Source: Paucibacter sp. DJ2R-2
GTDB taxonomy: Bacteria; Pseudomonadota; Gammaproteobacteria; Burkholderiales; Burkholderiaceae_C
Length of the DNA: 64,000 nucleotides
Direction of reading: 5' to 3'
NCBI RefSeq assembly: GCF_025717675.1
Contig: NZ_JAJIRT010000007.1
Coordinates: 241,503-305,502, forward strand
In this document: positions 6,990 to 41,375 of the stretch, piece by piece
Layout of the letters: each line of letters begins with the position of its first letter
How positions within the stretch are numbered: position 1 is the stretch's first letter
Notes under the pieces: generated by a model
What the model was told of the DNA's origin: nothing
Seen by the model: the letters and a program-made list of their open reading frames with translations, nothing else
Databases searched by the model: none
Position numbers and translations under genes: made by a program

Positions 6990-7004
6990 AGTAGCAAAAC
7001 TACA
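6990..7004. promoter_or_regulatory. HexR-like operator, pulA/GH13 divergent promoter
   Basis: The 15-mer AGTAGCAAAACTACA is, on the other strand, TGTAGTTTTGCTACT, which fits the HexR consensus TGTARTWWWAYTACA at most positions. It lies 71 bp upstream of pulA and 82 bp upstream of the GH13 gene. The 14-base core GTAGCAAAACTACA recurs exactly at 41206-41219, upstream of the glucokinase genes. Confidence 0.65.
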
Positions 7005-7085
7005 TCAATAGCAACAGCACGGATTCCATGAGCCTCACAAAGCATCTAAGCTTTTCATCATTGAAATTTTGTCGAGGCGCGCCCC

Positions 7086-8750
7086 ATGAAACGTAATTCA
7101 ATTACAAAATCTGAAAGCCGCCTTCCAAGGCTGAGACGCCTGCTCCCCAGCCTGGCACTCGGTGCCGCCCTGGTCAGCGGCACCAGCCTGGCCGCCCCGC
7201 CGGTGGATCTGTCCCTCGTGCCCCCTCGCCCCAAGGCCAGCACCCTGCCCCCGGGCTGGGAACATGGCGCCTTCATGGAAATCTTCGTGCGCGGCTACCA
7301 GGACAGCGATGGCGATGGCATCGGCGACTTGCGCGGCCTGATCCAGCGCCTGGACTATCTCAAAGATTTGGGCATCAGCGGCATCTGGCTGATGCCCATC
7401 ACCGCCAGCGCCGACCACGACCATGGCTATGCCACCACCGACTTCCGCCGCATCGAGTCCCAGTACGGCAGCCTGCGCGATTTCGACGAGCTGATCCGTC
7501 AGGCCCACCGGCGCGGCATCGGCGTCATCATCGACTATGTGATCAACCACGCCTCGCACGAACACCCGCTGTTCCAGCAGGCGCTGAAAGATCGCCGCAG
7601 CCCCTACCGCGACTGGTTTGTCTGGCAGGACAGTGAGCCCCAGGGCTGGGACATCTGGGGCAAGAACCCCTGGACCGTGGCCACCTCGGCCGCCGATGGG
7701 AGCAAGCTGGGCGCCTACTTCGGCACCTTCGGCCCGCACATGCCGGATTTCAATCTACGCCACCCGGCCGTGCTCGACTACCACCGCAGCAGCCTGCGCT
7801 TCTGGCTGAACCGCGGTCTGGACGGCTTCCGGCTCGACGCCGTGCCGCACCTGATCGAGAACAACGCCGTCGACTGGAACGACCAACCCGAGAGCCGCCG
7901 CCTGAGCCGCGAGCTGCAAGCCCTGATCAAGCAATACCCGCGCCGCCATGTGGTCTGCGAAGCGACCGCCAACCCGCAGCAGTACGCCCGCCCCGAGGTC
8001 TGCGGCAGCGCTTTCGCCTTCGGCCTTGAAGCGCAGATGATCAAGGCCGCGCGCGGCGAGGCCGCTGCCGTGGGCGAGATCGCCCGCATCCTGAGCCAGG
8101 CCCCGAGCACCATGGCCAATGTGCTGGCCAACCACGACATCTTTGCCGGCTCGCGCGTCTGGGACCAGCTCGGTGGCGACGAGGCACGCTACAAGCTGGC
8201 GGCAGCCAGCTACCTGCTCGCGCCGGGCACGCCCTTCATCTACTACGGCGAAGAGATCGGCATGGCCGGCGTCTCGCAGCTGCCCGGCGACGAGCCCCTG
8301 CGGGCCCCCATGAGCTGGACGGCTGACATCAGCGGCTTCACTTCCAGCGCCACGCCCTACCGCCCGCTTTCACCCAATGCCGCCAGCCACAACGCCGCCG
8401 CGCAGGCGCGCGATCCTGGCTCGCTGCTGAACTTCTACAAAGCCATGATCGCCCTGCGCCGCCAGCTGCCCTCGATCGCGCGCGGCAGCTTCATCCAGGC
8501 CCAGACCGAGGATCAGGTCTTGAGCTTCCAGCGGCGACTCGGCGATGAGCTGAGCCTGGTGCTGATCAACTATGGCGAGCAGGCCGCCACGCAGGCGGTG
8601 AGCGGCCTGCCTGCGGGCGCACTGCTTCAACAGGCCTACCCAGCCCAGGCAAGCCTTGGCAGCGACGCGCAAGGCCAAGCCCTGCTGCGGGCACCCGCCC
8701 GGTCCGTGCAGGTCTGGCGTTTGGATTTGCCCCAGAAAGGCCGGCCATGA
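7086..8750 (+). CDS. Exported alpha-amylase family protein (GH13)
   Basis: The 554-residue protein has an N-terminal signal (LPSLALGAALVSGTSLAA, residues ~20-37). The GH13 barrel starts near residue 60 with AFMEIFVRGYQDSDGDGIGD, a calcium-binding-type loop found in oligosaccharide-active GH13 enzymes. The catalytic residues are D251 (GFRLDAV), E292 (VVCEAT) and D351 (LANHD). A C-terminal beta domain follows. It should hydrolyse alpha-1,4 bonds in starch or maltodextrins in the periplasm or outside. It overlaps the next gene by 4 bp (ATGA), so translation is coupled. An operator-like palindrome lies inside codons 3-7. The exact specificity (amylase or alpha-glucosidase) cannot be read from sequence alone. 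Confidence 0.85.
   Translation: MKRNSITKSESRLPRLRRLLPSLALGAALVSGTSLAAPPVDLSLVPPRPKASTLPPGWEHGAFMEIFVRGYQDSDGDGIGDLRGLIQRLDYLKDLGISGIWLMPITASADHDHGYATTDFRRIESQYGSLRDFDELIRQAHRRGIGVIIDYVINHASHEHPLFQQALKDRRSPYRDWFVWQDSEPQGWDIWGKNPWTVATSAADGSKLGAYFGTFGPHMPDFNLRHPAVLDYHRSSLRFWLNRGLDGFRLDAVPHLIENNAVDWNDQPESRRLSRELQALIKQYPRRHVVCEATANPQQYARPEVCGSAFAFGLEAQMIKAARGEAAAVGEIARILSQAPSTMANVLANHDIFAGSRVWDQLGGDEARYKLAAASYLLAPGTPFIYYGEEIGMAGVSQLPGDEPLRAPMSWTADISGFTSSATPYRPLSPNAASHNAAAQARDPGSLLNFYKAMIALRRQLPSIARGSFIQAQTEDQVLSFQRRLGDELSLVLINYGEQAATQAVSGLPAGALLQQAYPAQASLGSDAQGQALLRAPARSVQVWRLDLPQKGRP
7092..7106. promoter_or_regulatory. HexR-like operator inside the start of the GH13 gene
   Basis: CGTAATTCAATTACA contains the perfect 13 bp palindrome GTAATTCAATTAC and differs from TGTAATTNAATTACA only in the first base. 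It begins 6 bp after the first base of the start codon, so a bound repressor would block elongation. The AT-rich codons here are unlike the GC-rich body of the gene. Confidence 0.55.
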
Positions 8751-10606
8751 ATCGCCTGCAACTCGCCGCCCTCCTCCTGGCCGCCGCCCTGCTGCCCAGC
8801 AGCCGCAGCCTGGCCCAAACTGTGGAGCAGATCGAGCCGCCCAGCTGGTGGGCCGGCATGAAGGAGCCGCGCCTGCAGCTGATGCTGCAGGGCTCGCAGA
8901 TCGGCATCCTTCGCCCGCGGCTCAACAAGCCCCATGCCGGCGTGCACCTGCTGCCGCCCGAGCGCGTGGCCAGCCCGAACTACCTGTTCCTGAACCTGCA
9001 CATCGCCGCCACCGCCCGGCCGGGCACGCTGCAGATCGAGCTGCTGAAGCCCGACGGCCGCGTGGCCCAGCGCCTGAGCTATGCCCTGCAGGCGCGCGCG
9101 CCCGGCTCGGCCCAGCGCCAGGGCTTTGGCCCGCAGGATGCGATCTACCTGCTGGTGCCCGATCGTTTCGCCAAGGCCGGCGAGAGCGTCTCGAACGCCG
9201 AGATGCTCGAGGCCGAAGACCGCAGCCAGCCAGGCGGCCGCCATGGCGGCAACCTCGCCGGCCTGCGCCAGCATCTGGACTACATCGCCGGCCTGGGCTT
9301 CACCCAGATCTGGCCCACGCCCCTGGTCGAGAACAACAGCGCCAGCTACAGCTACCACGGCTATGCGGCCACCGATTTCTACCGCATCGACCCGCGCTTC
9401 GGGCGCAACGAGGACTACCGCGATCTGGTCGCGGAGGCGCGAAACAAAGGCCTGGGCGTGATCCAGGACATCGTGCTCAACCACATCGGCGCCGGCCACC
9501 GCTGGCTGCGCCAGCTGCCCGAGCCCGACTGGCTCAATCAGTGGCCCAGCTACACCGAGACCCACCATGCGCGCCTGAGCCTGCTCGACCCGCACGCCGC
9601 CGCCAGCGACCGTGAGCGCTTTGTCAGCGGCTGGTTCACGCGCGGCATGCCCGACCTGAACCAGCGCAACCCACGCGTGGCCCGCTACCTGACGCAGATG
9701 AGCATCTGGTGGGTGGAGTACGCTGGGCTCTCGGGCCTGCGCACCGACACCTACTCCTACTCCGACCGCGGCTTTCTCGCCGACTGGTCACGGCGCCTGA
9801 TGCAGGAGTACCCGCGCCTGAACCTGGTCGGCGAGGAATGGAGCCCGCACCCGGCCGTGGTGGCCTACTGGCAGCGCGGCAAGCGCAACCACGACGGCTA
9901 CGCCTCCCACATGCCCAGCATGATGGACTTCCCCCTGCACGGCGCCATGCTCGCCGGGCTCAAGGAAGACGACGGCCACGACAGCGGCCTGACCAAGCTT
10001 TACGAAGCCCTGGCCCACGATTTCCTCTACCCCGACCCGCAGCGCCTGGTGCTGTTCGAGGGCAACCACGACACACCCCGCTTGTTCAGCGCGCTAGGGC
10101 AAGACCTGGCTCTGTGGAAGATGGCCCTGCTCTACCTGGCCACCGCGCCGCGCATCCCGCAGTTCTTCTACGGCGATGAATTGCTGCTCACCAGCCCCGC
10201 CCAGCGCGACGACGGCCGGGTGCGCGCCGACTTCCCCGGCGGCTGGGCCGGTGATGCAGCCAATGGCTTCACCGGCCAGGGCCTGAGTGCCGAGCAGCAA
10301 GAAGCCCAGGCCCTGGTGCGCCGGCTCTTCAACTGGCGCAAAAGCGCCCCAGCCTTGCACGGCGGCCGCAGCACACACTACGCCCCCATGGACCAGGTCT
10401 ATGCCCTGTTCCGCCAGGGCGGCGGGCAGACGGTGATGCTGATGCTGAACAAGGCCAAAGAGCCGCGCCGGGTCGACATGACGCGCTTCCGAGAAGCCTT
10501 GGGCAGCCACAGCGAGGGCCGCAATGTGCTCAGCGGCCAGACGCTGCGCTGGAACGAAAACCTGGAGCTGCCGGCCCGCTCGGCCCTGCTGCTGGAGTTG
10601 CGCTGA
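8747..10606 (+). CDS. SusA-like neopullulanase/cyclomaltodextrinase (GH13), exported
   Basis: The 619-residue enzyme starts with a signal peptide (LAALLLAAALLPSSRSLAQ). An N-terminal cyclomaltodextrinase-N-like domain follows, with IEPPSWWAGMKEPRLQLML as in Bacteroides SusA. The GH13 barrel starts at ~130 (DAIYLLVPDRF). Catalytic residues are D334 (GLRTDTY), E363 (VGEEW) and D442 (EGNHD). SusA-type enzymes hydrolyse maltodextrins and pullulan in the periplasm. The ATG overlaps the stop of the preceding GH13 gene, so both are one operon. The combination of a Sus-type enzyme with a proteobacterial MalEFGK system is notable. A 27 bp gap separates it from the convergent antiporter gene. Confidence 0.88.
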   Translation: MNRLQLAALLLAAALLPSSRSLAQTVEQIEPPSWWAGMKEPRLQLMLQGSQIGILRPRLNKPHAGVHLLPPERVASPNYLFLNLHIAATARPGTLQIELLKPDGRVAQRLSYALQARAPGSAQRQGFGPQDAIYLLVPDRFAKAGESVSNAEMLEAEDRSQPGGRHGGNLAGLRQHLDYIAGLGFTQIWPTPLVENNSASYSYHGYAATDFYRIDPRFGRNEDYRDLVAEARNKGLGVIQDIVLNHIGAGHRWLRQLPEPDWLNQWPSYTETHHARLSLLDPHAAASDRERFVSGWFTRGMPDLNQRNPRVARYLTQMSIWWVEYAGLSGLRTDTYSYSDRGFLADWSRRLMQEYPRLNLVGEEWSPHPAVVAYWQRGKRNHDGYASHMPSMMDFPLHGAMLAGLKEDDGHDSGLTKLYEALAHDFLYPDPQRLVLFEGNHDTPRLFSALGQDLALWKMALLYLATAPRIPQFFYGDELLLTSPAQRDDGRVRADFPGGWAGDAANGFTGQGLSAEQQEAQALVRRLFNWRKSAPALHGGRSTHYAPMDQVYALFRQGGGQTVMLMLNKAKEPRRVDMTRFREALGSHSEGRNVLSGQTLRWNENLELPARSALLLELR

Positions 10607-10633
10607 AGGTCTGAGGCGCTGAGAGAAAAGGCC

Positions 10634-15565: not shown

Positions 15566-17716
15566 TCAGGAACGTGGGGCTTCCGGCGCCTGGCTCAGCA
15601 CCAGCAGGCTGCAGGCCGGCGCGGCCAGGGTACCGCGACGCTCGCCATGCTCGGCCAGCTCGCCGCTGCTGTCCAGCAGCAAGCTCCAAGGCCCGGGCGG
15701 CAAGGCAAAGACCTGCAAGGCATCGGCCGGGTTGAAAAGCAGAAGCAGCACCGTTTCGGTTGCTTCGCCCTGCAGCAGGCCGGCAAAGGCGAGCTCGCCG
15801 CCGTGGTGCCAGTCTTGCACCTGCATGGCATGGCCGTGCGGGCTCAGCCAGCGCAGGCTGGCCGCGCCGGGGGCGCCCGGAGAAGCAGCCTCGCCGAACC
15901 AATGCGCCTGGCGCAGCAGCGGGTGGGCACGGCGCAGGGCGGTAAGGCGGCCCACAAAGGCCGCCAGGCTGCGGTCGGCCTGCGGCCAGTCCAGCCAGCC
16001 CAGGGCGTTGTCCTGGCAATAGGCATTGTTGTTACCGCCCTGGCTGTTGGCGATCTCGTCGCCGGCATTAAGCATGGGCGTGCCCTGGGCCAGCAGCAAG
16101 CTGGCCAGCATGGCGCGGCGGGCGCGCTCACGGCGGCGGCGCACAAGCGGGTCCTCGCTCGGCCCTTCGACGCCGAAGTTGGCGCAGAGCTCGCCGTCGC
16201 GGCCATCGCGGTTGTTCTCGCCATTGGCCTCGTTGTGCTTGCGCGAGTAGCTGACCAGATCGTTGAGCGTGTAGCCGTCGTGGCAAGCCACGAAGTTGAC
16301 CGAAGCCAGCGGGCTGCGCTGGCCGTGGTGGAACACATCGCTGGAGGCGGTGAAGCGGCGCGCGAACTCGCCCCGGCCCGTGCCACCGGCTCCGCCGGCG
16401 CCCAGCCAGTAGCCACGCACGGCGTCGCGGAACTTGTCGTTCCACTCCAGAAAGCGGCCCGGAAAACGGCCCAGCTGGTAGCCGTCATAACCCGCATCCC
16501 AGGGCTCGGCGATCAGGTGCACACCAGCCAGCACCGGGTCCTGGCGTAAAGCCATGAAGAAGGCGGCGTTGCCATCGAAACCATGGCGGGTGCGGCCCAG
16601 CACCGGGGCCAGGTCGAAGCGGAAGCCATCCACCCCCATCTCCTGCACCCAGAAGCGCAGGGAATCGAGCACCAGCTGGGCCACGCGCGGGTGCGCGGTG
16701 TTGAGGGTGTTGCCGCAGGCGCTGTGGTTCTCGCAGCGACTCAGGTCTTCGGCCACCAGGCGGTAATAGCTCTTGTGATCAAGGCCACGGAAGGAAATCG
16801 TCGGGCCGAACTCATTGCCCTCGGGCGTGTGGTTGTAGACCACGTCCAGCACCACCTCCAGCCCCGCTTCGTGCAAGGCCTGCACCATGGCGCGGAACTC
16901 GGCCGCCACAGCGCTGGCGTCCTCGCGGTGGGCCGGCTGGGCCAGGCGCGGGTCGGGCGCGAAAAAACCCAGGGAGTTGTAGCCCCAGTAGTTGCGCAGG
17001 CCGGTGCCGGCCAGATGCGGCTCGTCCAGCGCGTAGTGCACCGGCAGCAAGGACAGGGTCGTCACGCCCAAGGCCTTGAAATGCGCAATCGCCGCCGGAT
17101 GCGCCAGGGCGGCATAACTGCCACGCAGCGCGGCCGGGATCTCGGCCATCTGCTGCGAGAAGCCTTTGACATGGACCTCGTAGAGCACCACATCCTGCAG
17201 CGCATGGCGCGGCGCCGAGCGGCGCGGGCTAGGCCCGGCCAGCGGCACGGGCACGCGCGCTTTCAGCGCCTGGGCGGCGTTGTCGCGGCGGTCGAAGGAC
17301 CGAGCGCCATCCGGGTGGCCCAGCTCATAGCCATGGTGTTCGGCATGCCAGCCGAAGTGACCGACGATCTCGCGGGCATAGGGGTCGAGCAGCAGCTTGT
17401 GGGCATTGAAACGGTGGCCGGCCTCGGGCTGGTAAGGGCCGTGGGCACGCAGGCCATAGACCAGGCCCGCACCCAGGCCAGGCAGAAAGCCCTGAAAAAT
17501 GCCGTCCTGCGGGCCCTGCAGCCGGTAGCGGCGCAGCTCGCACTGGCCGGCCGCATCGAAGACGCAAAGCTCGATGGCCTGCGCATGCTCGGAGAAGACG
17601 GCGAAATTGACGCCGCCATCTCGCACCTGGGCGCCCAAAGGCTCATGGCGGCCGGGCTCCAGGGCCTCGGGCAAACGGTTAGCGGTGCTCGTCGTCGTCA
17701 TCATCATCGTTGTCAC
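15566..17716 (-). CDS. glgX: Glycogen debranching enzyme (isoamylase type, GH13)
   Basis: The 716-residue protein has a CBM48-type N-terminal domain (DGGVNFAVFSEHAQAIELC). GlgX/isoamylase signatures follow: YELGHPDGARSFDRRDNA, YWGYNSLGFFAPD and VVLDVVYNHTPEGNE. The catalytic nucleophile is in DGFRFDLAPVL, the acid Glu in LIAEPWD, and the third Asp in NFVACHDG. It removes short alpha-1,6 branches left by GlgP. The start is GTG 17716 (2 bp after the esterase stop) or one of the ATG codons at 17707 and below; the N-terminus is a low-complexity run of Met and Thr codons. It lies between the esterase and malQ. Confidence 0.95.
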   Translation of the reverse strand: MTTMMMTTTSTANRLPEALEPGRHEPLGAQVRDGGVNFAVFSEHAQAIELCVFDAAGQCELRRYRLQGPQDGIFQGFLPGLGAGLVYGLRAHGPYQPEAGHRFNAHKLLLDPYAREIVGHFGWHAEHHGYELGHPDGARSFDRRDNAAQALKARVPVPLAGPSPRRSAPRHALQDVVLYEVHVKGFSQQMAEIPAALRGSYAALAHPAAIAHFKALGVTTLSLLPVHYALDEPHLAGTGLRNYWGYNSLGFFAPDPRLAQPAHREDASAVAAEFRAMVQALHEAGLEVVLDVVYNHTPEGNEFGPTISFRGLDHKSYYRLVAEDLSRCENHSACGNTLNTAHPRVAQLVLDSLRFWVQEMGVDGFRFDLAPVLGRTRHGFDGNAAFFMALRQDPVLAGVHLIAEPWDAGYDGYQLGRFPGRFLEWNDKFRDAVRGYWLGAGGAGGTGRGEFARRFTASSDVFHHGQRSPLASVNFVACHDGYTLNDLVSYSRKHNEANGENNRDGRDGELCANFGVEGPSEDPLVRRRRERARRAMLASLLLAQGTPMLNAGDEIANSQGGNNNAYCQDNALGWLDWPQADRSLAAFVGRLTALRRAHPLLRQAHWFGEAASPGAPGAASLRWLSPHGHAMQVQDWHHGGELAFAGLLQGEATETVLLLLFNPADALQVFALPPGPWSLLLDSSGELAEHGERRGTLAAPACSLLVLSQAPEAPRS

Positions 17717-17718
17717 GC

Positions 17719-18672
17719 TCAGGCGCTGGCGCCCAGTAGAAAACTCAGGGGCTGGGCCAGGCGGGCGGACCAGGCCAGCTCCTTGTGGCCTTGGCCTTCA
17801 AACACCCGCGACTGCAGCTGCGGGGCGCGGTGGCCCAGCTCGGCCATCAGCGCATCGACCTGGGCTTGCGCATCGTCGTACTGCGCATCCAGATCCGCCG
17901 TGCCGCGGTCCATGTACAAGCGCAGCTGGCCCGGTGGCGGCAGCTTGCGGCGCAGATAGGCCAGCGCGGCTGCGGGGATCTCGCGGTTGCGCTCGAAGCT
18001 GCCGATCCAGTGCGTGCTCAGCGCCGCCGCGGCGCCAAAGACCTGGGGGTATTCGCACAGACCGTAGACGCTGATCATGCCGCCCATGCTGGAGCCCATC
18101 AGAAAGGTGGAATCGCGGTCGGGCGCGGTGGCATAACTCGCATCCACGGCGGGCTTGAGTTCCTCGACGATGAAACGCAAGTACGCATCCGACATCACCG
18201 GATGCTTGATGCGCTCGGCGCGGTAGCGCTGGGCCGTGGGCGAGTCCTGCAAGGCGTGGTCGTAGGCCTGCGGAAAGAACTCGGCGTGGCGAAAATCGGG
18301 CCGGTTCCAGATGCCGACGACGATGAAGTCACGCAGCAGGCCAGCGGCGATCAGGGGCGCGGCCACCTGGTCCACCTTCCAGGCCTGGCCGTTCCAGGTG
18401 CTGCGCGGGTCGAACAGCATCTGGCCGTCGTGCACATACAGCACCGCATGCGGGCGGCGGCCGTCGTAGCCGGGCGGCAGCCAGACTTCGACCGGGCGCG
18501 GCGGCACGGCCCGCGAGGGGAACGGCGCCCAGCGCTCCAGCCGGCCCAGCTGCACCTGCGCCGCAGGGGCTGCCTCGGTCGGCTCTGCCGACGCGGCAGA
18601 CGGCAACACCGCGCCGCTCAAGACTGCACCCGTCATCATCATGGCCTCGCGTCGATTCAAACCCAGCGTCAT
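17719..18672 (-). CDS. Enterochelin-esterase-like alpha/beta hydrolase with Tat-like signal
   Basis: This 317-residue alpha/beta hydrolase has the nucleophile elbow GSSMGG (Ser) and [11 protein letters not shown] (His). Its closest pattern is the COG2382/COG2819 group of putative esterases, which includes siderophore esterases and CE1-like feruloyl/mycolyl enzymes. The N-terminus [20 protein letters not shown] resembles a twin-arginine signal, implying export. It starts with an ATGA overlap on the glgB stop, with AGGAGAAG upstream, so it is co-translated with glgB. An exported esterase in a cytoplasmic glycogen operon is unexpected. It may remove acyl groups from imported glucans, but that is inference. 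Confidence 0.75.
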
Positions 18673-20570
18673 GACTTCTCCTGCCCCAGGAACAGGACCG
18701 ACAGCGGCGGCAAGGTCAGCACCAGGCTGCCATCGGCCTCGGCCTGCAAGCCGGCATCGAGATTGCCCAGATTGCTGCCGCCGTAGTGGGCGGAATCGGT
18801 GTTGAGCAGTTCGCGCCACGTGCCACCTGTGGCAAGCGCCGGCGGCAGCGGCAGGCGATAACCGGGCCGCGGCACCGGCGTGAAGTTGCAGACCACCAGC
18901 ACCGTGCGGCGCTCGCCCTCTTCACTTTCATCATGCCGCGCCCAGGCCAGCACCGAGTGCTCGCGGTCCTCGGCCTGCAACCACTCGAAACCACGGGCCT
19001 CGCAGTCCAGGCGGTGCAGGGCCGGCTCGCGGCGGTAGAGCAGGTTCAGGTCGCGCACCAGGCGCTGCATGCCGGCGTGGTGGCCCTGCGCATCGGCCAG
19101 GAGATGCCAAGGCAACTCGGCGTCATGGTTCCACTCGCTAGCTTGAGCGAACTCCTGGCCCATGAAGAGCAGCTTCTTGCCGGGATGGCCCCACATGAAG
19201 CCGTAGAAGGCGCGCAGATTGGCGAACTTCTGCCAGGCGTCGCCGGGCATCTTGCCCAACATCGAGCCCTTGCCATGCACCACCTCGTCGTGCGAGATCG
19301 GCAGCACAAAGTTCTCGCTGAAAGCGTAGACCAGGCCGAAGGTCAGCTTGTCGTGGTGCCAGCGGCGGTGGATGGGATCTTCCTGCATATAGCGCAGGCA
19401 ATCGTTCATCCAACCCATATTCCATTTGTAGTGAAAGCCCAAGCCGCCGGCATAGGTCGGTGCGCTGACCCCGGGAAAACTGGTCGACTCCTCGGCCACG
19501 GTGATGGCGCCGGGCGCCTCCTGGCCGAGCAGCTCGTTGATGCGCTTGAACAGGCTGATGGCCTCCAGGTTCTCGCGCCCGCCGTCCACATTGGGCAGCC
19601 ACTCGCCCGCCGGGCGGGAGTAGTCGCGGTAGAGCATGGAGGCCACCGCATCGACACGCAGGCCGTCCACGCCGCAGCGCTCCATCCAGTAGAGCGCATT
19701 GCCGGCCAGGAACTGGCGCACCTCGTAGCGGCCAAAGTTGTAGATGGCGGTGTTCCAGTCGCGGTGGAAACCTTCGCGCGGGTCGGCGTATTCAAACAGC
19801 GCCGTGCCGTCGAACTGCGCCAGGCCATGCGGGTCCATGGGGAAATGCGCCGGCACCCAATCGAGCAGCAGGCCGAGACCCTGCGCATGGCAGGCCTCGA
19901 CAAAACGGGCGAAGCCCTCGGGTGGGCCAAAGCGCGCGCTGGGCGCGAACAGGCCCAGGGTCTGGTAGCCCCAGCTGCCATCGAAAGGATGCTCGCTGAT
20001 GGGCATCAGCTCGATGTGGGTGAAACCCAGACCAGCGGCATAGGCCGGCAGCTGCTCGGCCAGCTCGTCCCAGCTCGGGAAGGCCCCAGTACCCCGGCGC
20101 CAGGAGGCGGCATGGACCTCGTAGATGGCCACCGGCGACTGCCGCGCATTGGCCATCGCGCGCTCCGGGCTCAGGCGCGGCCGGGTCTTGAGCACCGGCA
20201 AAGCCGGCACCACGATGCTGGCCGTGGCCGGGCGCAGCTCGGCCGCACGCGCGAAGGGGTCGGCCTTCAGCGGCAGCAGTTGCCCCGCGCGGTCATGAAT
20301 CTCGAATTTGTAGAGATCGCCCACGCGCGCGGCCGTGGCGAAACCTTGCCACACGCCCGAGGCCTCGTCCTTGACGAGGGGATCGGCCTCGCCGTCCCAG
20401 CCATTGAAACTGCCGACCACGCTGACCCGGCTGGCATTGGGCGCCCAGACGGCAAAGCGCACACCATGCTTGCGACCCAGGCGCCCGGCATGGGCACCCA
20501 ACAACTCCTGCGGCCGCGGGTGTTCACCGCGGGCCAGCAGGGCCAGGTCTTGCGCGGAGATCAGTGCCAT
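18669..20570 (-). CDS. glgB: 1,4-alpha-glucan branching enzyme (GH13)
   Basis: The 633-residue protein has a CBM48 domain ([21 protein letters not shown]) at ~35-120, then the branching-enzyme barrel. Signatures are [37 protein letters not shown] (nucleophile Asp), ITVAEEST (acid Glu) and [14 protein letters not shown] (third Asp). It forms alpha-1,6 branches in the cytoplasm. It lacks the extra N1 domain of E. coli GlgB (728 aa). The start at 20570 gives a family-like N-terminus and leaves 19 bp after glgP. No glgA or glgC is in the window, so here it travels with degradation genes. Confidence 0.95.
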
Positions 20571-20589
20571 GGCCAAGCGCTGTAGCGGT

Positions 20590-23073
<2,484 letters not shown>

Positions 23074-23524: not shown

Positions 23525-24624
<1,100 letters not shown>

Positions 24625-24628
<4 letters not shown>

Positions 24629-25827: not shown

Positions 25828-27470
25828 GTCCGTCCATGAACATGCCCGCCAGCCTCCCGACTCCGGACCCATCGTCACCCCACACGGCCTTGCCGCTGGG
25901 TCGCGGCGTTTACACCCAGCTGCCGCCCAGCCGCCTGGAACGCCTGGCCCAGCGCCTGCGCTGGCCGCTGACCGGCGCGGCCGGCCTGGCCTCGCTCTAC
26001 CTGGTGTTCCTGATGCATGCCGCCGGCCAGACCTGGCTGGCCCTGGGCGCCCTGGGCTTCTTCGTCCTGGTGTTCTACATCTACATCAGCCAGGCGGCCT
26101 TTGCCCTGCGCTACCTCTTCCCCGGCATTGCCGGCATGCTGATCTTCATCGCCTTCCCCCTGGTGTACACGGCGCAGATCGGCTTCACCAACTACTCCTC
26201 GGCCCATTTGCTGAGCCAGGAGCGGGTGCGTGAGTACCTGCTCGATCAGCACGAGGCGGTGGCCGGCCAGACCCAGGGCTTCACCCTGCATGCCGATGGG
26301 CCGGAGTTCCGCCTGGTGCTGCGCGCCGAGGACGGCAGCCCGAGCTGGGTTTCGCCGGCCCTGGCCCTGAAGACCACCCGCCAGGAACTGAGCGTGGACA
26401 TGCTGCCCGCGCAGTCCGCCCAGCAACCCCTGACCGCACCGCTGCAGCAAGCCCTGCCCCTGCGGGAGCTGATCGAGCACCGCGAGGCGCTGATGCAGCT
26501 CAAGCTGCGCCTGCCCGGCGCCGCGCAGGAGCTGCGTTATCTGGGCCTGCGCGAGTTCGGCGCCATCAGCCGCCATTGGCAGGCTCAGGACGACGGCAGC
26601 CTGCTGCGCCTGGCCGACCAGACCCGCTTCAGCCCCAATCTGCAAACCGGCTATTTCGAAAGCGCCGCCGGCGAGGTGCAGCAACCCGGATTCAAGGTCG
26701 TGGTGGGCTGGCGCAACTACACCCGCATGGTGATGGACGCGGAGTTCCGCGGGCCTTTCCTCGCCATCTTCAGCTGGACCGTCTTGTTCTCGGCCCTGAC
26801 CGTGCTCTGCGCCACCGCCATCGGCATGTTGCTGGCCGTGCTGCTGAACTGGGACGACCTCAAGTTCCGCGGCACCTACCGCACCCTGCTCTTCCTGCCC
26901 TACGCGGTGCCGGGCTTCATCTCCATCCTGGTGTTCAAGGGTTTGTTCAACCAGAACTTCGGCGAGATCAACGCCATCCTCGACGCCCTCTTCGGCATCA
27001 AGCCGGCCTGGTTTGCCGACCCGCTGCTGGCCAAGGTGATGCTGCTGATCGTCAACGTTTGGCTGGGCTACCCCTACATCATGATTCTCTGCGCCGGCCT
27101 GCTGAAGAGCATCCCCGCCGACCTGTACGAAGCCTCGGCGATTGCCGGCGCCGGCCCGCTGACCAATTTCTTCAAGATTACCGCGCCCCTGGTCATCAAG
27201 CCGCTGGCGCCCCTGCTGGTCAGCGCCTTTGCCTTCAACTTCAACAACTTCGTGCTGATCGCGCTCTTGACGGACGGACGGCCCGATTTCCTCTCGACCA
27301 AGATCCCGGCCGGGCAGACCGACATCCTGGTGTCCTACACCTATCGCATCGCCTTCAAGGACTCAGGCTCGGACTTCGGCCTGGCCGCAGCCATCTCCAC
27401 CCTGATCTTCTTCCTGGTGGCGGCCATGTCCCTGATCAATCTGCGCCTGATGCGCAAAGCCAATTCATGA
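25824..27470 (+). CDS. malF: Maltodextrin ABC transporter permease MalF
   Basis: The 548-residue membrane protein has three N-terminal membrane segments, a large periplasmic P2 loop (~110-300) as in E. coli MalF, and the permease core with the EAA motif ([19 protein letters not shown]). The start ATG 25824 overlaps the malE stop. With MalG it forms the inner-membrane channel. The C-terminus [13 protein letters not shown] is typical. Confidence 0.94.
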
Positions 27471-27516: not shown

Positions 27517-28407
27517 ATGGCCATCGTTCGAGGCAAAAAGGCGCGCTGGCAGGTCTGGGCCGCGCATGGGCTGATGTGGGTCTTTCTGGCCCTGACCCTG
27601 TTCCCGCTGCTGGCCATCGTCAGCATCTCGCTGCGCCCGGGCAATTTCGCAACCGGCCAGCTGATCCCCAGCGAGATCAGCCTGGAGCACTGGAAGCTGG
27701 CGCTGGGCATACCCTACCAGGCGGCCGATGGCAGCCTGGTGCAGCCGCCTTTCCCGGTGCTGACCTGGCTGTGGAACTCGGTCAAGGTGGCGACCATCTC
27801 GGCCTTTCTGATCGTGGCGATTTCCACCACGGCGGCCTTTGGTTTTGCGCGCCTGCAGTTCCGTTTCAAAACGCCCATTCTCAACAGCATGCTGCTGCTG
27901 CAGATGTTCCCGCCGGTGCTGGCCCTTGTGGCGATCTACGCGATCTTTGAAACCCTGGGCAACTTCGTGCCGGCCCTGGGCCTGGAGACCCACGGCGGCC
28001 TGGTGCTGGCCTACCTGGGCGGCGTGGCCACCCACATCTGGACCATCAAGGGCTATTTCGAAACCATCCCGGTTGAGATCGAGGAATGCGCCAAGGTCGA
28101 CGGTGCCACGCACTGGCAGGCCTTCCGCATGGTGCTGCTGCCCATGGCCCTGCCCATCCTGATGGTGGTCTTTGTGCTGGCCTTCATCGGCACCATCATC
28201 GAGTACCCGGTCGCCTCGGTGCTGCTGCGCGAAGAGGGCAATCTGACCCTGGCCGTGGGCTCCAAATACTTTCTGCATGACCAGCGCTTCCTCTGGGGCG
28301 ATTTCGCCGCCGCGGCCGTGCTCTCGGGCCTGCCCATCACCGCAGTCTTCCTGCTGGCCCAGCGCTGGATCGTCTCGGGCCTGACGGCCGGTGGGGTGAA
28401 AGGGTGA
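27517..28407 (+). CDS. malG: Maltodextrin ABC transporter permease MalG
   Basis: The 296-residue permease has six membrane segments and the EAA loop [22 protein letters not shown]-terminal [19 protein letters not shown] matches MalG ([16 protein letters not shown] in E. coli). It follows malF after 46 bp containing several ATG codons (ATGATCATGATGATGACGA) and a good ribosome site GGGGAG. It overlaps the next gene by one base (TGATG). Confidence 0.95.
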
Positions 28408-30911
28408 TGCGTGGCGCGCTGATGCTGCTGGCTGCCCTGCTCGCCCTGCCTCTGATCCACAGCCCGGCCCAAGCCAGCCCAAGCTGCACACCCAGCCCCC
28501 TGGGCACACGCGAGCTGTTCCTGCGCGGCAGCTTCAACAACTGGAGCGCGAGCGACGCCCATCGCTTGGTCTATGTCTGTGACCGTTATGAGCTCTACCT
28601 GAAGCTGCAGGGCGAGCAGAGTTTCAAGATCGCCGACGAAGACTGGTCGGCCGACGCCGACTTCGGCGGCCAGGCCCGTCAGCTGCAGCTCAAAGGCCCG
28701 TCGCTGAACCAGCGCTTCAAGGGCGGCATGCACAAGCTGGTGCTGCGCTTGACGGACAAAAGCGCAAGCTTGGCCATCCAGCCCTTTGCCGGCAAGCCAC
28801 CCCAGCTCCGCAGCGCGCCCAGCGTCACAGACCCGGTGGCCCTGAGCCTGCGCTTTGATTCGCGCGATCTGCAGCACAAAGCACCGTTTGGCGCCGTCAC
28901 GCCCGGCACGCCGCTGCGCCTGAGTCTGAACGCCCTGCCCGGCGTGCAGCGCGCCAGCCTCGTGGTCGCCAAGCGGCGGCTGGAGGGCAATCAGGAGGTG
29001 CTCGAGTACAGCGAGGTGCAACGCCTGCCTCTGCAAAAGGACGGCGGAACCGAAGCGGGCCGAGAGCGCTGGAGCTGCACGGTGATGCTCGCGGAGCCGG
29101 CCATCTACGGCTACCACTTCGAAGTGGAGATCGCCGGCAAGCGCTATGTGTTCCACAACAACCGCGACCCGGTGTTCTGGACTCGCGAAAAAGGCAGCAT
29201 GGGCGCCGGCAGCGTGGACCCCTTGCCCGAGAACCCGCGCCAGATCCGCCGCTACCGCCAGACCGTCTACGCCACTGACTTCAAAGTGCCCGACTGGGCG
29301 CGCGACATCGTCTACTACTCCATCTTCCCCGAGCGCTTCCGCAACGGCGACCGCAGCAACGACCCGCAGCCAGGCCGCGAGCACTACCAAAACCAAGGCG
29401 TGGAGCGCCACAGCCGCTGGCTGGAGAGGCCCTACAAACCGGGCAGCGGCGACGGTTCGGACGGCGTCTACAACAACGATTTCTTCGGCGGCGACCTGGC
29501 CGGCATCATCGAAAAGCTCGACTACATCCGCGAGCTCGGTGCCAACACGATCTACATGACGCCGGTCTTCCGCGCGGCCAGCAACCACAAGTACGACACC
29601 GGCGACTACAAGCAGATCGACCCGGCCTTCGGCAGCAACGATGACTTCAAGCGCCTGACCTTGGAGGCCGCCAAGCGCGGCATCCGCGTCATCCCGGACA
29701 CCTCGCTCAACCACGTCGGCAGCGACTCGCCTTACTTCAACCGCTTCAACAACTTCAAGCCCGGCGGCGCCTTCGACGGCGGCCGGCTCAACCCCGACTC
29801 GATCTACGCCAGCTGGTTCAAGCTCGACCCCAGCCAGGCCAAGCCCGAGGATCAGTACCAGGGCTGGACGGGGGTGAAAGATCTGCCCGAGCTGGACAAG
29901 AACTCGCCCGCCTTCCGCGACTTCGCCTACCGCGCGCCCGATTCGGTGACCCGGCAATGGCTGGACTTCGGCGCCGCCGGCTGGCGCATGGATGTGGCGC
30001 CCTGGGTGCCCGACGATTTCTGGCGCGAATGGCGCCAGGTGGTGAAAGCGACGCGGCCCGATGCGCTGACCGTGGCCGAGACCTGGTTCGATGCCAGCAA
30101 GTATTTCCTCGGCGATATGTTCGATTCGACGATGAACTACATCTTCCGCAATGCCGTGCTCGAGTACGCGGCCGGCGGCGATGCGAGAAAGCTCTACGCC
30201 CAGATCGAGCTGATGCGCGAGGCCTACCCGCCGCAGGCCTTCTACGCGCTGATGAACCTGCTCTCCAGCCACGACCAGGCCCGCGCCCTGCACCACTTCG
30301 GCTATTCGGATGAGCCCGGCGCCAGCGCCCAGCAGCGCAGCGCCCAGGCCCTGAGCCTGGCCAAGCAGCGCCTGCGCTTGGCGGTGTTCTTCCAGATGGT
30401 CTTCCCCGGCGCACCCACGATTTACTACGGTGACGAAGTCGGCCTGGGCGGTGGCGATGACCCCTACAACCGCGCGCCCTACCCCTGGGCCGACGAAGGC
30501 GGCCGGCCCGACCAGGCCCTGTTGGCCGACTTCAAGCGCCTGACCGCCCTGCGCCATGCCGAGCCGGTGCTGCGTCACGGCAGCCTCAGCGCACCGCTGC
30601 ACCTGGATGCCAACATCATCGTGCTGGCGCGCCAGGACGGCGAAACCTGGGCCCTCACAGCCATGAACAACGCCGCGCAGAGCCGCCGGGTGCGGGTGAA
30701 CTTGCCCAGCGCCCTGGTCACACAGCTGCAGCGCGCGCTTTCAGGTCAGGCCGCCCTGCGCGAGGCGCTGGCGCCGCTGCAGACCGCCAAGGGCAGCCAG
30801 CCCGGCTATCGCCTGAACGGCTCGGTGCTGGAGCTGAGCTTGCCCGCGCGCTCGGGCCGCGTGCTGATCAGCCAGCCACCCTCGTCGTCGGCGGCGGCAC
30901 CCAGTCACTGA
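28407..30911 (+). CDS. Exported alpha-amylase/cyclomaltodextrinase-like protein with N-terminal starch-binding-like domain (GH13)
   Basis: The 834-residue protein has a signal peptide (LAALLALPLIHSPAQA). A CBM20/48-like beta domain follows (ELFLRGSFNNWSASDAHRL, residues ~30-110), then a second beta domain and the GH13 barrel from ~300 (IVYYSIFPERFRNGDRSND). The catalytic segments are GWRMDVAPW, TVAETWFD and LLSSHDQ. It should cleave maltodextrins or cyclodextrins in the periplasm before uptake. It is the last gene of the malKEFG operon; GTG 28404 is an alternative start. Its 3' end overlaps the convergent nitroreductase gene by 44 bp. Confidence 0.87.
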   Translation: MRGALMLLAALLALPLIHSPAQASPSCTPSPLGTRELFLRGSFNNWSASDAHRLVYVCDRYELYLKLQGEQSFKIADEDWSADADFGGQARQLQLKGPSLNQRFKGGMHKLVLRLTDKSASLAIQPFAGKPPQLRSAPSVTDPVALSLRFDSRDLQHKAPFGAVTPGTPLRLSLNALPGVQRASLVVAKRRLEGNQEVLEYSEVQRLPLQKDGGTEAGRERWSCTVMLAEPAIYGYHFEVEIAGKRYVFHNNRDPVFWTREKGSMGAGSVDPLPENPRQIRRYRQTVYATDFKVPDWARDIVYYSIFPERFRNGDRSNDPQPGREHYQNQGVERHSRWLERPYKPGSGDGSDGVYNNDFFGGDLAGIIEKLDYIRELGANTIYMTPVFRAASNHKYDTGDYKQIDPAFGSNDDFKRLTLEAAKRGIRVIPDTSLNHVGSDSPYFNRFNNFKPGGAFDGGRLNPDSIYASWFKLDPSQAKPEDQYQGWTGVKDLPELDKNSPAFRDFAYRAPDSVTRQWLDFGAAGWRMDVAPWVPDDFWREWRQVVKATRPDALTVAETWFDASKYFLGDMFDSTMNYIFRNAVLEYAAGGDARKLYAQIELMREAYPPQAFYALMNLLSSHDQARALHHFGYSDEPGASAQQRSAQALSLAKQRLRLAVFFQMVFPGAPTIYYGDEVGLGGGDDPYNRAPYPWADEGGRPDQALLADFKRLTALRHAEPVLRHGSLSAPLHLDANIIVLARQDGETWALTAMNNAAQSRRVRVNLPSALVTQLQRALSGQAALREALAPLQTAKGSQPGYRLNGSVLELSLPARSGRVLISQPPSSSAAAPSH

Positions 30912-36818: not shown

Positions 36819-36825
36819 TTCATGT

Positions 36826-39699
36826 TCAGAACTTGTAGTTGGCGCCGAACAGATAGGTCTTGCCGTACTTGATCTTGTCCGTGATCTCGCTCGGGCTGGT
36901 GTTGTAGCGCTGGAACAGGGCATTGGTCATGTTGTTGCCCTGAGCCAGCAGCGACAGACCCTTGAGCCAGCCGGTCTGGAACTCGTAAGAGACCTGCAGG
37001 TCGACGATGGACTCGCCCTTGATGAAGGTCAGCTGACGGTTGTCCTGGAAGTCACTGACTTCACCCAGGAAGTCCGAACGCTTGCGCTGAGCCACAGCGA
37101 TCTGGAAGCCGTTCTTCTCGTAGTAGAAGCGCAGATTGGTGACCTTCTTGGACAGACCCGGCAGCGGGATCTTGATCGCACTGACGTTCTCGACGCTGAA
37201 GCCTTCGGTGGGCAGTTCCACCGAGCTGCTGGTGCTCGAGTGGTTGATCATCACGCCGAAACCATCAAGCCAGGACGAGGCCATGGACAGGGGGATGTTG
37301 ACCGACAGTTCGATGCCCTTGATGTTCCCACCTTGGCCGTTGATCGGCTGGTTGATCAGGCCGACCGTGCTCACGCCCGGGGGCAGCACAACACCAGAGC
37401 CGATATAGGGCTTGAAGTCGAACACAGTGGGCACGCGCAGAATGTAGCTGTCCAGCTTCTTGTAGAAGCCGGCAACCGACACATAGCCCTTGTTGCCGAA
37501 ATACTTCTCGTAGGAGACGTCCAGAGCCTTGGCGCGGAACGGTTCCAGATCAGGGTTACCGCCCGAACCGGTCAGCAATTGCTTGCCGCCGCTGCTGTTG
37601 ATCGAATAGCCCAGGCTGGCACGCATATCACCCATATTGGCGCGCGACAAAACCTTGGCCGCAGCCATGCGCAGGTACTGTTCCGAACCCAGATCGAAAG
37701 ACACGTTCAGGCTGGGCAAGAAGTCCGAATACGTGCGACCCTTGCCGACTGTGGCACCAGGGCAGGTTTCCGGTGTGTTGCCCACGCACTTGGCGCGGTC
37801 CACATTGAAGCCGGTCGAGCTCTGGTCGGTGTGCACGTATTGCGCGCCGACATTGCCGCGGTACTTGAAGCCTGCCAGTTCGCCTTCCAGGTCACCCTTG
37901 AAGTAGAAGGTGTTGACTTCTTCCTTGACCGTCCAGTCCTTGTTCAGGATGTCGGCATCGACCTTCTGGCCCAGCTCATAAATACCGCCCAGCGAACCGC
38001 GCGGATCCCAAGACACCACTTGCAAGCCGGTAGTGCCGGCCACGCTGGTGGCGCCGCCAGGCACATCGGCCACGCCGTAGGGGTTGCCACCCTTCACGAC
38101 CAGACGACCTTCTTGCGTGCTGCGCAGCTTGTCGCGCTTGGTGAAGTTGGCACCGAACTCACCAGCCACCAGGGGACCGAAAGACAGGTCGGTCTTCGCC
38201 GCAAGACGGATGGCGTCGACCTTGTCTTCCACATGCGGCAGGGCCACATAGCCGGCTTGGGGCGAGCTCACGCCACCGCTCCAGCCGTTGACGTCAGTCA
38301 ACTTGGCCACGGCGCGGTCGGCATAGCTCAGGCCGGTGCTGTACTTGACGTCGGTGAAGTTGCCGCCATCGAAACCGGTCCAGCTGATGCTGCCCAGGTT
38401 CTTGTTATCACCAGCCTGGCCGGCCGTGGTTTCATAACGCGAGCTGTCACGGGTGACCTTGGAGCGCGAGATGTCGGCCGTGGCTTGCCAGTCACCGAGC
38501 TTGAACTTGTTGTTCCAGCCGAAGGACTGCATCTTGTCAGCGCCACCCTCGACGTGGTTGCGCACCACGCCCTTGTAGTTGCTCAGGGTGCCTGCGGTGA
38601 CGACGCCATTGGCCAGGGTGTAGTTGGTGATCACGCCTGCCGGGTCATAAGCACCGTTGGTGTCGCCACCAATGGCACCTTCCAAACCGGTCTTCTTCAG
38701 GCCAAAGCTGCCCTTGGAGTAGAAGAAGTCCAGAGTCGATTCAAAGTCCTTGTTGGGCTTGAACTGGAACGTGGCCATGGCGCCATCGCGCTTGTTGGTG
38801 CTGGTCTCGGTGTCGGCCGTGAAGCCGCCCTGAACCTTGTACTTGGTGCTGTTGCACAAGGCATCCAAAGGCTTGGAGGTGTCCTTGGGATCGCAATTGC
38901 CCAGGGTACGCATCGGCGAACCCGCCGCGCCCGAGACCACCCAGTTGTCAGGCGTCCAGCCACCCCAGGAATTGAACTTCTGCTGGTCGGCGCCCTTTTC
39001 GTCAAAACGCACAAAACCCAGGGCCACACCGATGGTGCGGTCAGCGAATTGATCCACATAGGACAGCGAGGTTCGGTCGCCGTCGCCTTCGCCAGCGCCC
39101 GAAGCCACGCCGGTGCGCTGCTTGCGGTAATTGACAGCGACGGTGCGCTTGCCGAAGTTCAGCGGGCGCACGGTCTGCAGGTCGATGGTGGAAGCCAGGC
39201 CTTGGCCGACCAGGGCGCCATCGGGGGTCTTGTAGATCACGACCGAGCCGAGCAATTCAGACGGGTACAGATCGAACTCGACGCCACGGCTGTCGCCGCT
39301 GGAGGCTTGCTCGCGGCCATTCAGCAAAGCGCCGTTGAAGTCGGGCGACATGCCGCGCACGCTGATGCTGGAGGCCTTGCCGGTGGACTTGTTGCGCTGG
39401 GCGGTCACGCCGGGCAGACGCGAGATGGATTCGGCCACGCTGGCATCGGGCAGCTTGCCGATGTCTTCAGCCGAGATGGCTTCAACGATGGAGTCGTTGT
39501 TCTTCTTGACCGAGATGGCATCTTCGATGCCCTTGCGGATACCGGTCACCTGCACGGTTTCCAGCTGAGCCGGCGTTTGCTGAGCAAACGCACCCGTGGC
39601 CATCATCAACAAGGTGCAGCCCACGGCCACCGGATTGATTTTGAAAATCTCGCGCTGCACTGCCAGGGCCTGCTTGCGCTTCTCTGCGGAAGTACTCAT
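36826..39699 (-). CDS. TonB-dependent receptor, predicted maltodextrin/starch uptake
   Basis: The 957-residue outer-membrane protein has a signal ending TGAFAQ, a TonB-box-like LETVQVTGIRKG, a plug domain (DIGKLPDASVAESISRLPGV), and a long beta-barrel ending in aromatic KF (LFGANYKF). The plug motif is shared by the large carbohydrate TonB receptors of Caulobacter (MalA group) and Xanthomonas. It would import maltodextrins across the outer membrane using TonB energy; the substrate is inferred from context. The start at 39699 has AGGAG 9 bp upstream. Upstream lie a CTAGTTT palindrome and a HexR-like operator. Confidence 0.9.
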   Translation of the reverse strand: MSTSAEKRKQALAVQREIFKINPVAVGCTLLMMATGAFAQQTPAQLETVQVTGIRKGIEDAISVKKNNDSIVEAISAEDIGKLPDASVAESISRLPGVTAQRNKSTGKASSISVRGMSPDFNGALLNGREQASSGDSRGVEFDLYPSELLGSVVIYKTPDGALVGQGLASTIDLQTVRPLNFGKRTVAVNYRKQRTGVASGAGEGDGDRTSLSYVDQFADRTIGVALGFVRFDEKGADQQKFNSWGGWTPDNWVVSGAAGSPMRTLGNCDPKDTSKPLDALCNSTKYKVQGGFTADTETSTNKRDGAMATFQFKPNKDFESTLDFFYSKGSFGLKKTGLEGAIGGDTNGAYDPAGVITNYTLANGVVTAGTLSNYKGVVRNHVEGGADKMQSFGWNNKFKLGDWQATADISRSKVTRDSSRYETTAGQAGDNKNLGSISWTGFDGGNFTDVKYSTGLSYADRAVAKLTDVNGWSGGVSSPQAGYVALPHVEDKVDAIRLAAKTDLSFGPLVAGEFGANFTKRDKLRSTQEGRLVVKGGNPYGVADVPGGATSVAGTTGLQVVSWDPRGSLGGIYELGQKVDADILNKDWTVKEEVNTFYFKGDLEGELAGFKYRGNVGAQYVHTDQSSTGFNVDRAKCVGNTPETCPGATVGKGRTYSDFLPSLNVSFDLGSEQYLRMAAAKVLSRANMGDMRASLGYSINSSGGKQLLTGSGGNPDLEPFRAKALDVSYEKYFGNKGYVSVAGFYKKLDSYILRVPTVFDFKPYIGSGVVLPPGVSTVGLINQPINGQGGNIKGIELSVNIPLSMASSWLDGFGVMINHSSTSSSVELPTEGFSVENVSAIKIPLPGLSKKVTNLRFYYEKNGFQIAVAQRKRSDFLGEVSDFQDNRQLTFIKGESIVDLQVSYEFQTGWLKGLSLLAQGNNMTNALFQRYNTSPSEITDKIKYGKTYLFGANYKF

Positions 39700-39812: not shown

Positions 39813-39832
39813 CTAGTTTGTATCAAAACTAG
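39813..39832. promoter_or_regulatory. CTAGTTT...AAACTAG palindrome upstream of TonB receptor
   Basis: Seven-base arms CTAGTTT and AAACTAG are separated by six bases, and a further half site CTAGTTTTG lies at 39858. The site differs from the HexR-like motif and may serve another repressor, perhaps LacI-type. It is 114 bp from the TonB receptor start codon. Confidence 0.4.
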
Positions 39833-39982
39833 ATTTTCAGACCAACAAACGTAAACCCTAGTTTTGCGTCCAAGCAACCATTTTTAGACGTCTTTTTCTC
39901 TCAAAACCGCGGATTTAGCGTGTTTTCAATACCACTTCAATCCCAGTTGACCGACAACAGCGGTCACTAAAGTCATGGAGGA

Positions 39983-39997
39983 TGTAATTCAACTACA
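39983..39997. promoter_or_regulatory. HexR-like operator, TonB receptor upstream region
   Basis: TGTAATTCAACTACA fits TGTARTWWWAYTACA at all but one base and extends to a near-perfect 21 bp palindrome (39980-40000). It lies 284 bp upstream of the TonB receptor and 5 bp past the end of glk. Confidence 0.65.
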
Positions 39998-40002
39998 TCC
40001 AA

Positions 40003-41058: not shown

Positions 41059-41204
41059 AGCACGCCACCCTGCCCTGACTTGAACTCAACTCTTGCTCGC
41101 CACATCCTCGATCCCCGGTCGATGCAGGCCACTCCGCGAGTCCCTGCATTGCTTTGCTGTTTTTGAGCGCCCGAGCAGACTGCCCGTTGTTCGCACAGAC
41201 AAAA

Positions 41205-41219
41205 GGTAGCAAAACTACA
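41205..41219. promoter_or_regulatory. HexR-like operator, glk promoter side
   Basis: GGTAGCAAAACTACA shares its last 14 bases with the site upstream of pulA (6990-7004). It lies 147 bp from the glk start. Confidence 0.65.
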
Positions 41220-41360
41220 TTCGCGTGACAAGAGCGACTTCCCGAGCAATTCAGCCACATCGCGCCGAAATTTCTAAAAATACTTCAAATTACCCATGAA
41301 AAAAGACCCAAGCTACGGCAAAGACCGCAGGCACAAGCTTGCCGTCCCGAAGACATGAAA

Positions 41361-41375
41361 AGTAGTCAAGCTACA
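41361..41375. promoter_or_regulatory. HexR-like operator, glk-hexR promoter side
   Basis: AGTAGTCAAGCTACA has the GTAG...CTAC arms of the motif and lies 256 bp upstream of the fusion gene, suggesting autoregulation. Confidence 0.5.

Follow-up and report, generated by a model that had tools for sequence, protein, structure and literature searches.

A palindrome recurring before starch-sugar digestion and import genes in Roseateles-like bacteria, the likely docking site of a glucokinase-fused switch

A stretch of 64,000 nucleotides of Paucibacter sp. DJ2R-2 (contig NZ_JAJIRT010000007.1, positions 241,503 to 305,502 of the forward strand; hereafter the window) holds a locus for starch and maltodextrin use, together with a gene in which a glucokinase is fused to a regulator of the RpiR family. 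Six 15-base palindromes lie in the control regions of this locus, and the same palindrome recurs before genes for the digestion and import of starch sugars in Roseateles-like bacteria, being, from sequence comparison, the likely docking site of the fused switch. We consider it probable that the fusion binds these palindromes as a local repressor that controls both the use of starch and maltodextrin and its own gene, acting apart from the stand-alone HexR encoded beside zwf.

The palindromes and the fused regulator

The six sites are present exactly at the coordinates given by an earlier note on this DNA, which had read them as operators of a HexR regulon:

6990 to 7004, site 1, AGTAGCAAAACTACA, upstream of both pulA, whose likely start is the ATG at 6919, and the GH13 gene that begins at 7086
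7092 to 7106, site 2, CGTAATTCAATTACA, overlapping codons 3-7 of the GH13 open reading frame (ORF) called from 7086
23306 to 23320, site 3, TGTAGTTTCACTACA, in the divergent glgP/malK control region
39983 to 39997, site 4, TGTAATTCAACTACA, between the glk stop and the start of the TonB receptor gene
41205 to 41219, site 5, GGTAGCAAAACTACA, in the divergent glk/fusion region
41361 to 41375, site 6, AGTAGTCAAGCTACA, in the same glk/fusion region
41631 to 43568 (ATG at 41631 or 41643), forward strand, glucokinase-RpiR fusion, identified by Pfam and NCBIfam scans

The pattern GTARYNNNRYTAC matches these six positions of the window and no others, with a chance expectation of 0.02 per window (100 dinucleotide-preserving shuffles, none of which reached six). 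The whole genome (5.80 Mb) has 15 such places, six of them in the window, as compared with 162 for the pattern read backwards; GTARYNNNRYTAC is thus infrequent genome-wide, and its non-random part is the clustering in the starch locus. Of the nine places outside the window, four are GC-rich (L001-L003, L015), those of L004 and L007 lie upstream of edd and gltB, respectively, and those of L005, L006 and L008 overlap ORFs. The palindromes at position 1501 of L001-L003 and L015, which are rich in GC and of the form GTAGC..GCTAC, resemble each other in their flanks (ACGTAG / CTACG and CTCACGTAGC) and are perhaps a repeat family separate from the starch sites.

Some particulars of the earlier description had to be amended. 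Site 7092 is the weakest and least typical of the six, with A at base 5 in both half-sites, and its end, ATTACA, does not fit the form xGTARYNNNRCTACA that had been given for all; likewise, none of the six fits the quoted HexR consensus TGTARTWWWAYTACA, each having 1-3 mismatches. The four divergent promoter regions are in fact three divergent pairs, which hold five sites (6990 and 7092; 23306; 41205 and 41361), while 39983 directly follows the glk stop and lies upstream of the co-directional TonB receptor gene. The distance to the start codon is about 205 base pairs (bp) from 23306 to malK and about 284 bp from 39983 to tonB. The fusion gene, which had been placed in the middle of the locus, is actually at its right edge.

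The fusion protein carries a glucokinase domain (PF02685, residues 16-325), a helix-turn-helix domain of the HTH_6 type (PF01418, 338-409) and a SIS domain (PF01380, 461-587). An N-terminal glucokinase domain is thus joined to an RpiR regulator, as in members of NF010701 (bifunctional transcriptional regulator/glucokinase), a model it matches with 820.6 bits, below the cut-off of 920. In spite of its RpiR helix-turn-helix and SIS domains, the HexR model NF008451 scores 225.5, also below its cut-off (296). Among the best 120 of 3568 database matches, the closest named proteins are those of Kinneretia aquatilis and Paucibacter sp. B51 (97 and 96% identity), and nearly every entry is named just 'glucokinase'. 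Sequence blocks of the kinase domain align along its whole length with the solved glucokinase 1q18, and from this the kinase half looks intact; since a second glucokinase is encoded beside it, the fused copy may be mainly a sensor.

Conservation of the sites with the fusion

The association between site and fusion was analysed in 80 loci, totalling 1,513,398 bases, fetched with the fusion protein as the sole criterion. These loci hold 198 sites, compared with 1-24 for six permuted control palindromes. The glk-fusion interval accounts for 137 of the sites and the tonB-glk interval for 39; a further 12 adjoin tonB, five are at pulA or pulA/GH13 and five at other places. Only one of the 198 falls inside a mapped gene (mapping relies on homologues of the window genes), so that the possibility, raised in the earlier note, of equal density in coding DNA and lack of conservation among relatives is not borne out. 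All 72 recognised glk-fusion gaps contain at least one site and 65 contain two or more, which corresponds to 137 sites where mononucleotide shuffles give 0.3. A site is found in 39 of 44 tonB-glk pairs (those without are in L021, L024, L033, L036 and L095), and one stands at most 700 bp upstream of the fusion match in 72 of the 80 loci.

More distant fusions follow a similar arrangement. On a named plasmid of Ideonella dechloratans, two sites separate glk from the gene of a fusion of 62% identity. Fusions of 56-57% identity adjoin malKEFG operons, and here the sites lie in the divergent region between glk and mal (L108-L110) or upstream of the mal genes (L111); a further locus of this group, L112, does not extend that far. 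Loci L176-L230 were mostly picked for already showing sites, and the pooled counts that include them (16/16 for pulA/GH13, 18/18 for glgP/malK, 94/94 for glk/fusion and 51/62 for tonB/glk) are biased and were set aside. A Burkholderia stagnalis match (H4) proved to be a stand-alone glucokinase, and has no sites.

The remaining targets were followed in 21 fusion-positive genomes (our own, 10 of the genus and 10 of the family), whose regions were fetched because sites were present. The glgP/malK site is found in 18 of them, G009, G028 and G114 being the exceptions; a pulA-type gene is likewise preceded by a site in 18, the exceptions here being G009, G037 and G052. Since no MalE was found in G114 and only a 45% match in G028, the glgP/malK target may be absent from these two. 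Additional sites precede an isoamylase-type gene (L229), lie close to an alpha-amylase gene (L197) and, as a pair, stand in front of a second malE(47-48%)-malF-malG-GH13 operon in two other genera (L122:11054-11141 and L235:5850-5949); others are near genes with no evident starch role (L196, L199, L201) or where no gene was identified (L200, L228). The proposal that the sites are a conserved class marking the control regions of pulA/GH13, glgP/malK, the TonB receptor and glk/fusion is therefore upheld.

In a family sample of 120 genomes from 119 genera, the commonest 14-mer, GTARCAAAACTACA, occurs at 22 places in 14 genomes, and its backward control at three places in three genomes. All 14 positive genomes encode the fusion, at 69-100% identity. 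A fusion of at least 66% identity is present in 17 genomes, the three without an exact GTARCAAAACTACA being G043 (partial, at a contig end), G087, which nevertheless has a glgP/malK site, and G096; the other 103 have neither. The resulting Fisher p of 1e-15 is uncorrected for shared ancestry, a caveat that counts against taking it at face value. Unbroken fusions at any identity number 22 (the matches in G069 and G085 are interrupted by stops and have the appearance of separate genes), and they are found in 19 of the 21 genomes with MalE versus three of the 99 without. No site was seen in the fetched mal regions of G108 and G121, which have MalE and no fusion, nor at the second mal-like operon of our own genome (loci L232, L233 and L236). 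Within the genus, 10 of 11 genomes carry the fusion; the exception, G008, has no fusion, no MalE and no starch-class site, and has kept hexR and the edd site. Taken together, this co-occurrence points to the fusion as the regulator of the starch sites.

Stand-alone HexR, operator classes and the effector pocket

A PF01418 search of the genome identifies three RpiR genes: that of the fusion, one that immediately follows zwf (L017) and a third (L018). The zwf-linked HexR is 80-98% identical across the zwf loci of relatives. Upstream of edd, a GTAA..TTAC-class site is found in 20 of 21 genomes, 19 of which have the core GTAATATGGTTAC, and edd is likely a target of this HexR. Upstream of zwf the candidates are weaker, mostly GAAACTTNGTTACA with GTAACTTCGTTACA in three, a 15-mer within two mismatches being present in 20 of 22 loci. 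The two classes differ at base 5 of the half-site, which is A in 40/40 edd half-sites and G in 495/548 starch half-sites; in paired terms, 20/20 edd sites are A/A, and the 274 starch sites divide into 223 G/G, 49 A/G and two A/A, a comparison tempered by the fact that one pattern permitting only A or G at base 5 gathered both classes and that the starch set includes loci chosen by their sites. A tree of 46 rows unites the zwf-linked HexR rows with the Neisseria HexR in one clade (98/89), outside which the fusion rows fall; the fusion side has a support of 87/56 with 33 rows and, once two un-fused-looking rows are removed, of 92/91 with 31, long branches being flagged. At position 1501 of L007, just upstream of the glutamate synthase gene gltB, there is a palindrome of the edd class, GTAACTGAATTAC, which makes gltB a possible HexR target.

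The effector pocket also sets the fusion apart. In the structure of RccR with 2-keto-3-deoxy-6-phosphogluconate (KDPG; 8K3B), nine residues are described as contacting the ligand, and the substitutions S139A, H148A and H164A as abolishing DNA binding (PMC10810197). We have aligned with it 89 rows of starch-type fusions (87 distinct), the tail containing K270 and R277 being poorly aligned. S139 is replaced by Y (87 rows) or F (two) and H148 by F, Y, L or M in all; H164 is R in 85 rows and kept in one; S188 is kept in none, with L, V or I in 86; S185 remains in 61, and R152 and S183 are kept in 89/89; in the uncertain tail region, K270 is kept in none and R277 in 53. Fusions of 56-57% identity retain S139 and H148 and have lost H164, S188 and K270. 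The 23 rows of zwf-linked HexR, in turn, keep the KDPG contacts (S188T in two, R277H in one). The pocket of the fusion still resembles one made for a phosphosugar. As most of the contacts to KDPG are replaced, its signal is probably not KDPG, which we consider an unlikely ligand.

These observations modify the claim that the sites extend the HexR regulon. Conserved sites and the fusion as their likely regulator hold, as does a wider link to HexR by way of fusions adjacent to zwf. What finds no support is the identity of the fusion with the Entner-Doudoroff HexR of the genome, as a separate HexR is encoded beside zwf here and in relatives, the edd sites are of another class and the fusion rows stand outside the HexR clade; KDPG as the signal is disfavoured by the contacts replaced. 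The extension of a KDPG-responsive HexR regulon was rejected.

In an order-level sample of 300 genomes, some fusions were found beside zwf. In the four such loci fetched, from other families (L267-L270), a GTAG-class site stands before zwf in 4/4, being TGTAGTTTAACTACA, TGTAGTTAAACTACA or TGTAGTAATGCTACA; three fit the consensus of the earlier note. GTAG is thus not peculiar to the starch fusions. Where glk and hexR lie un-fused beside zwf (L254-L259), all or nearly all of the nine KDPG contacts are kept, and the fusions of this sample, beside zwf or in sugar loci, have some of them changed. Three zwf-adjacent fusions of family f31 (L245, L248, L249; loci L268-L270) combine altered contacts (SYRYSSA-E) with TGTAG..CTACA before zwf. 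Because GTAG-class sites precede zwf at zwf-adjacent fusions, GTAG is more likely the older operator, and the opposite idea, that the fusion lineage rewrote GTAA into GTAG, was dropped. Most simply, the lineage would have retained its older GTAG operator as its target changed from zwf to starch, the stand-alone HexR of the family using GTAA.

Proposed regulation, rival explanations and known systems

The genes that would come under the fusion, and their neighbours, were identified from NCBIfam and Pfam profile scans, which covered part of the window ORFs:

4106 to 6919 (start chosen by eye), reverse strand, pulA, pullulanase, TIGR02103 over cut-off
7086 to 8750, forward, GH13 enzyme whose N-terminus resembles a signal peptide by eye
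8747 to 10606, forward, cyclomaltodextrinase-type GH13 enzyme, PF09087 and PF10438
14005 to 15528, reverse, malQ, 4-alpha-glucanotransferase
15566 to 17716, reverse, glgX, debranching enzyme, TIGR02100 over cut-off
18669 to 20747 (ends approximate), reverse, glgB, branching enzyme
20590 to 23196 (start approximate), reverse, glgP, glycogen/starch phosphorylase, TIGR02093 over cut-off
23525 to 24628, forward, malK, best match NF008233 (below its cut-off), NF008653 over cut-off
24625 to 25827, forward, malE, NF007011 over cut-off
25890 to 27470 (start approximate), forward, malF, PF14785
27517 to 28407, forward, malG, NF008231 over cut-off
28404 to 30911, forward, GH13 enzyme of the mal operon
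36826 to 39699, reverse, TonB-dependent receptor, PF00593 and PF07715
40003 to 41058 (start approximate), reverse, glk, stand-alone glucokinase, TIGR00749 over cut-off

The substrate of the TonB receptor is presumed from gene context to be maltodextrin. A tryptophan-halogenase-type gene (PF04820, 35010-36644) adjoins the receptor, and lies beside a tonB1 match in many loci of relatives. Downstream of the fusion, 43650-45684 holds a GGDEF gene and a gene for a PEPxxWA-CTERM-like protein. Long ORFs at 48500-50908, 56441-58474 and 58474-60351, near further GH13 and TonB genes, have no Pfam match at 1e-5, and their coding frame is unsure.

In the scheme we propose, the RpiR halves would bind GTAGYNNNRCTAC as a dimer and, without starch sugar, repress pulA, glgP and the genes after it, malKEFG, tonB, glk and the fusion's own gene. 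A phosphosugar derived from maltodextrin would then fill the SIS pocket and release the protein from DNA, the leading candidate being glucose-6-phosphate, the predicted product of the fusion's own kinase half. One step further, the protein could be a self-reporting kinase, which makes glucose-6-phosphate from imported maltodextrin, senses it through an RpiR half that has lost most of the KDPG pocket, and switches the starch regulon including its own gene, so that a lineage from zwf operons would have kept its GTAG operator and changed its signal to become a single-protein flux sensor. We hold this extended version as tentative and rather unlikely, and as somewhat less probable than it had seemed, because GTAG-class sites already precede zwf at zwf-adjacent fusions.

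Several observations weigh against the fusion as a local repressor of starch use. Eight of the 80 fusion loci lack a site within 700 bp upstream; five of these loci contain a site at another place, and L035, L082 and L096 contain none. The distant fusions L276 and L277 have no site in 8 kb, and L271 (a 47% fusion) has two sites of the GTAA class. Conversely, in L275, where zwf adjoins un-fused glk-hexR and every KDPG residue is kept, the interval from edd to zwf contains GGTAGTTTTACTACA and GGTAATATAACTACA, one of the GTAG class and one mixed, and G015, a genome of the order with no fusion at E 1e-110, has GTAG-class palindromes. At the positions where substitutions in RccR abolish DNA binding, the fusion has Y, F and R, and the loss of contacts alone may not prove a starch-specific effector, as zwf-adjacent fusions are also changed. 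Sign and effector are drawn by analogy to RccR and HexR at 15-bp sites, and scans around the sites revealed no sigma-70 consensus promoter. As a separate observation, G015 (L272, L273) has 27 strand matches of GTARYNNNRYTACA, some of them near-perfect and of the GTAG class.

Other explanations share part of this evidence. If the sites were operators of the zwf-linked stand-alone HexR, a KDPG-responsive regulon would have come to include starch genes. In favour of this, the two proteins belong to the RpiR family and resemble one another in their recognition helices (VSQPTVIRFCR and VSKPTVVRFCR), GTA-N7-TAC is common to both site classes, window site 7092 is itself of the edd class and the GTAG-type site of L275 belongs to an un-fused HexR locus elsewhere in the order. 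The sites nevertheless track the fusion, G008 has the zwf-linked hexR with neither fusion nor starch-class site, and the edd sites of relatives form a separate class, which makes this account improbable. Still a little less probable is an unrelated regulator, with the fusion as a mere passenger of the locus. The association may reflect linkage within one starch locus, yet two or more sites stand before the fusion in 65 of 72 recognised gaps, all 14 site-positive genomes have it, mal operons without it have no sites and fusions outside starch loci have sites before zwf; furthermore, no other regulator family was found among the window proteins scanned, a scan that did not cover every ORF. That the palindromes are a chance or repeat artefact has a negligible probability: the four other GC-rich copies in the genome (L001-L003, L015) resemble repeats, yet 0.02 matches were expected and the same control regions carry the sites across genera.

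The preferred repressor is more seriously challenged by the same protein acting as an activator or dual regulator, which we regard as rather unlikely and as clearly the strongest of the rivals. No consensus promoter hexamers were found near the sites, which would be compatible with a promoter that depends on an activator; several sites are distant from start codons (23306, 39983), and KDPG is described as strengthening RccR binding at its 28-bp sites (PMC5489143). In the opposite direction, the 15-bp sites of RccR are described as mediating a repression relieved by KDPG (PMC5489143, PMC10810197), and site 7092 overlaps codons.

If the fusion is indeed a local repressor of starch use, a group of Burkholderiales genera would have a conserved starch/maltodextrin regulon governed by a protein mostly named 'glucokinase', a lineage of central-carbon repressors would be seen to change its target pathway and probably its signal, and a natural enzyme-regulator fusion would be available for testing directly whether an enzyme's own product is sensed. 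Repressors of the RpiR family and their fusions with glucokinase are already known. Among the papers listed by full-text searches (15 of 233 and 10 of 114 in two of them), none was found, from titles, abstract starts and term counts, to tie such a fusion to maltodextrin or starch genes, and an earlier prediction in RegPrecise/Leyn 2011 is possible. Maltodextrin import, debranching and phosphorolysis are elsewhere under the maltose regulators MalT and LacI-type MalR, whose protein families are unrelated to the fusion; neither was seen in the locus among the proteins scanned.

Among known systems, HexR, the RpiR-family repressor of Entner-Doudoroff genes, shares with the fusion the HTH_6 and SIS domains, a GTA-N7-TAC operator of the same spacing and a glk neighbour, whereas the fusion lies outside the zwf-linked HexR clade, has mostly GTAG sites (edd having GTAA) and has most KDPG contacts replaced. 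The zwf-adjacent glucokinase-RpiR fusions (NF010701) have the same domain order and, in L267-L270, a GTAG-class site before zwf; unlike them, our fusion falls below the 920 cut-off and resides in a starch/maltodextrin locus away from zwf. Pseudomonas RccR, reported to bind TGTAGTTTTACTACT and TGTAGTAAAACTACA (PMC5489143), is also of the RpiR family, has FCR..GC in the recognition-helix region and recognises a 15-bp operator, TGTAGT-N3-ACTACA, nearly of the starch-site form, as far as a comparison of letters with the published operator goes (PMC5489143). In contrast to the fusion, it is described as controlling aceEF, aceA and glcB, as binding KDPG and as having no kinase domain (PMC5489143, PMC10810197).

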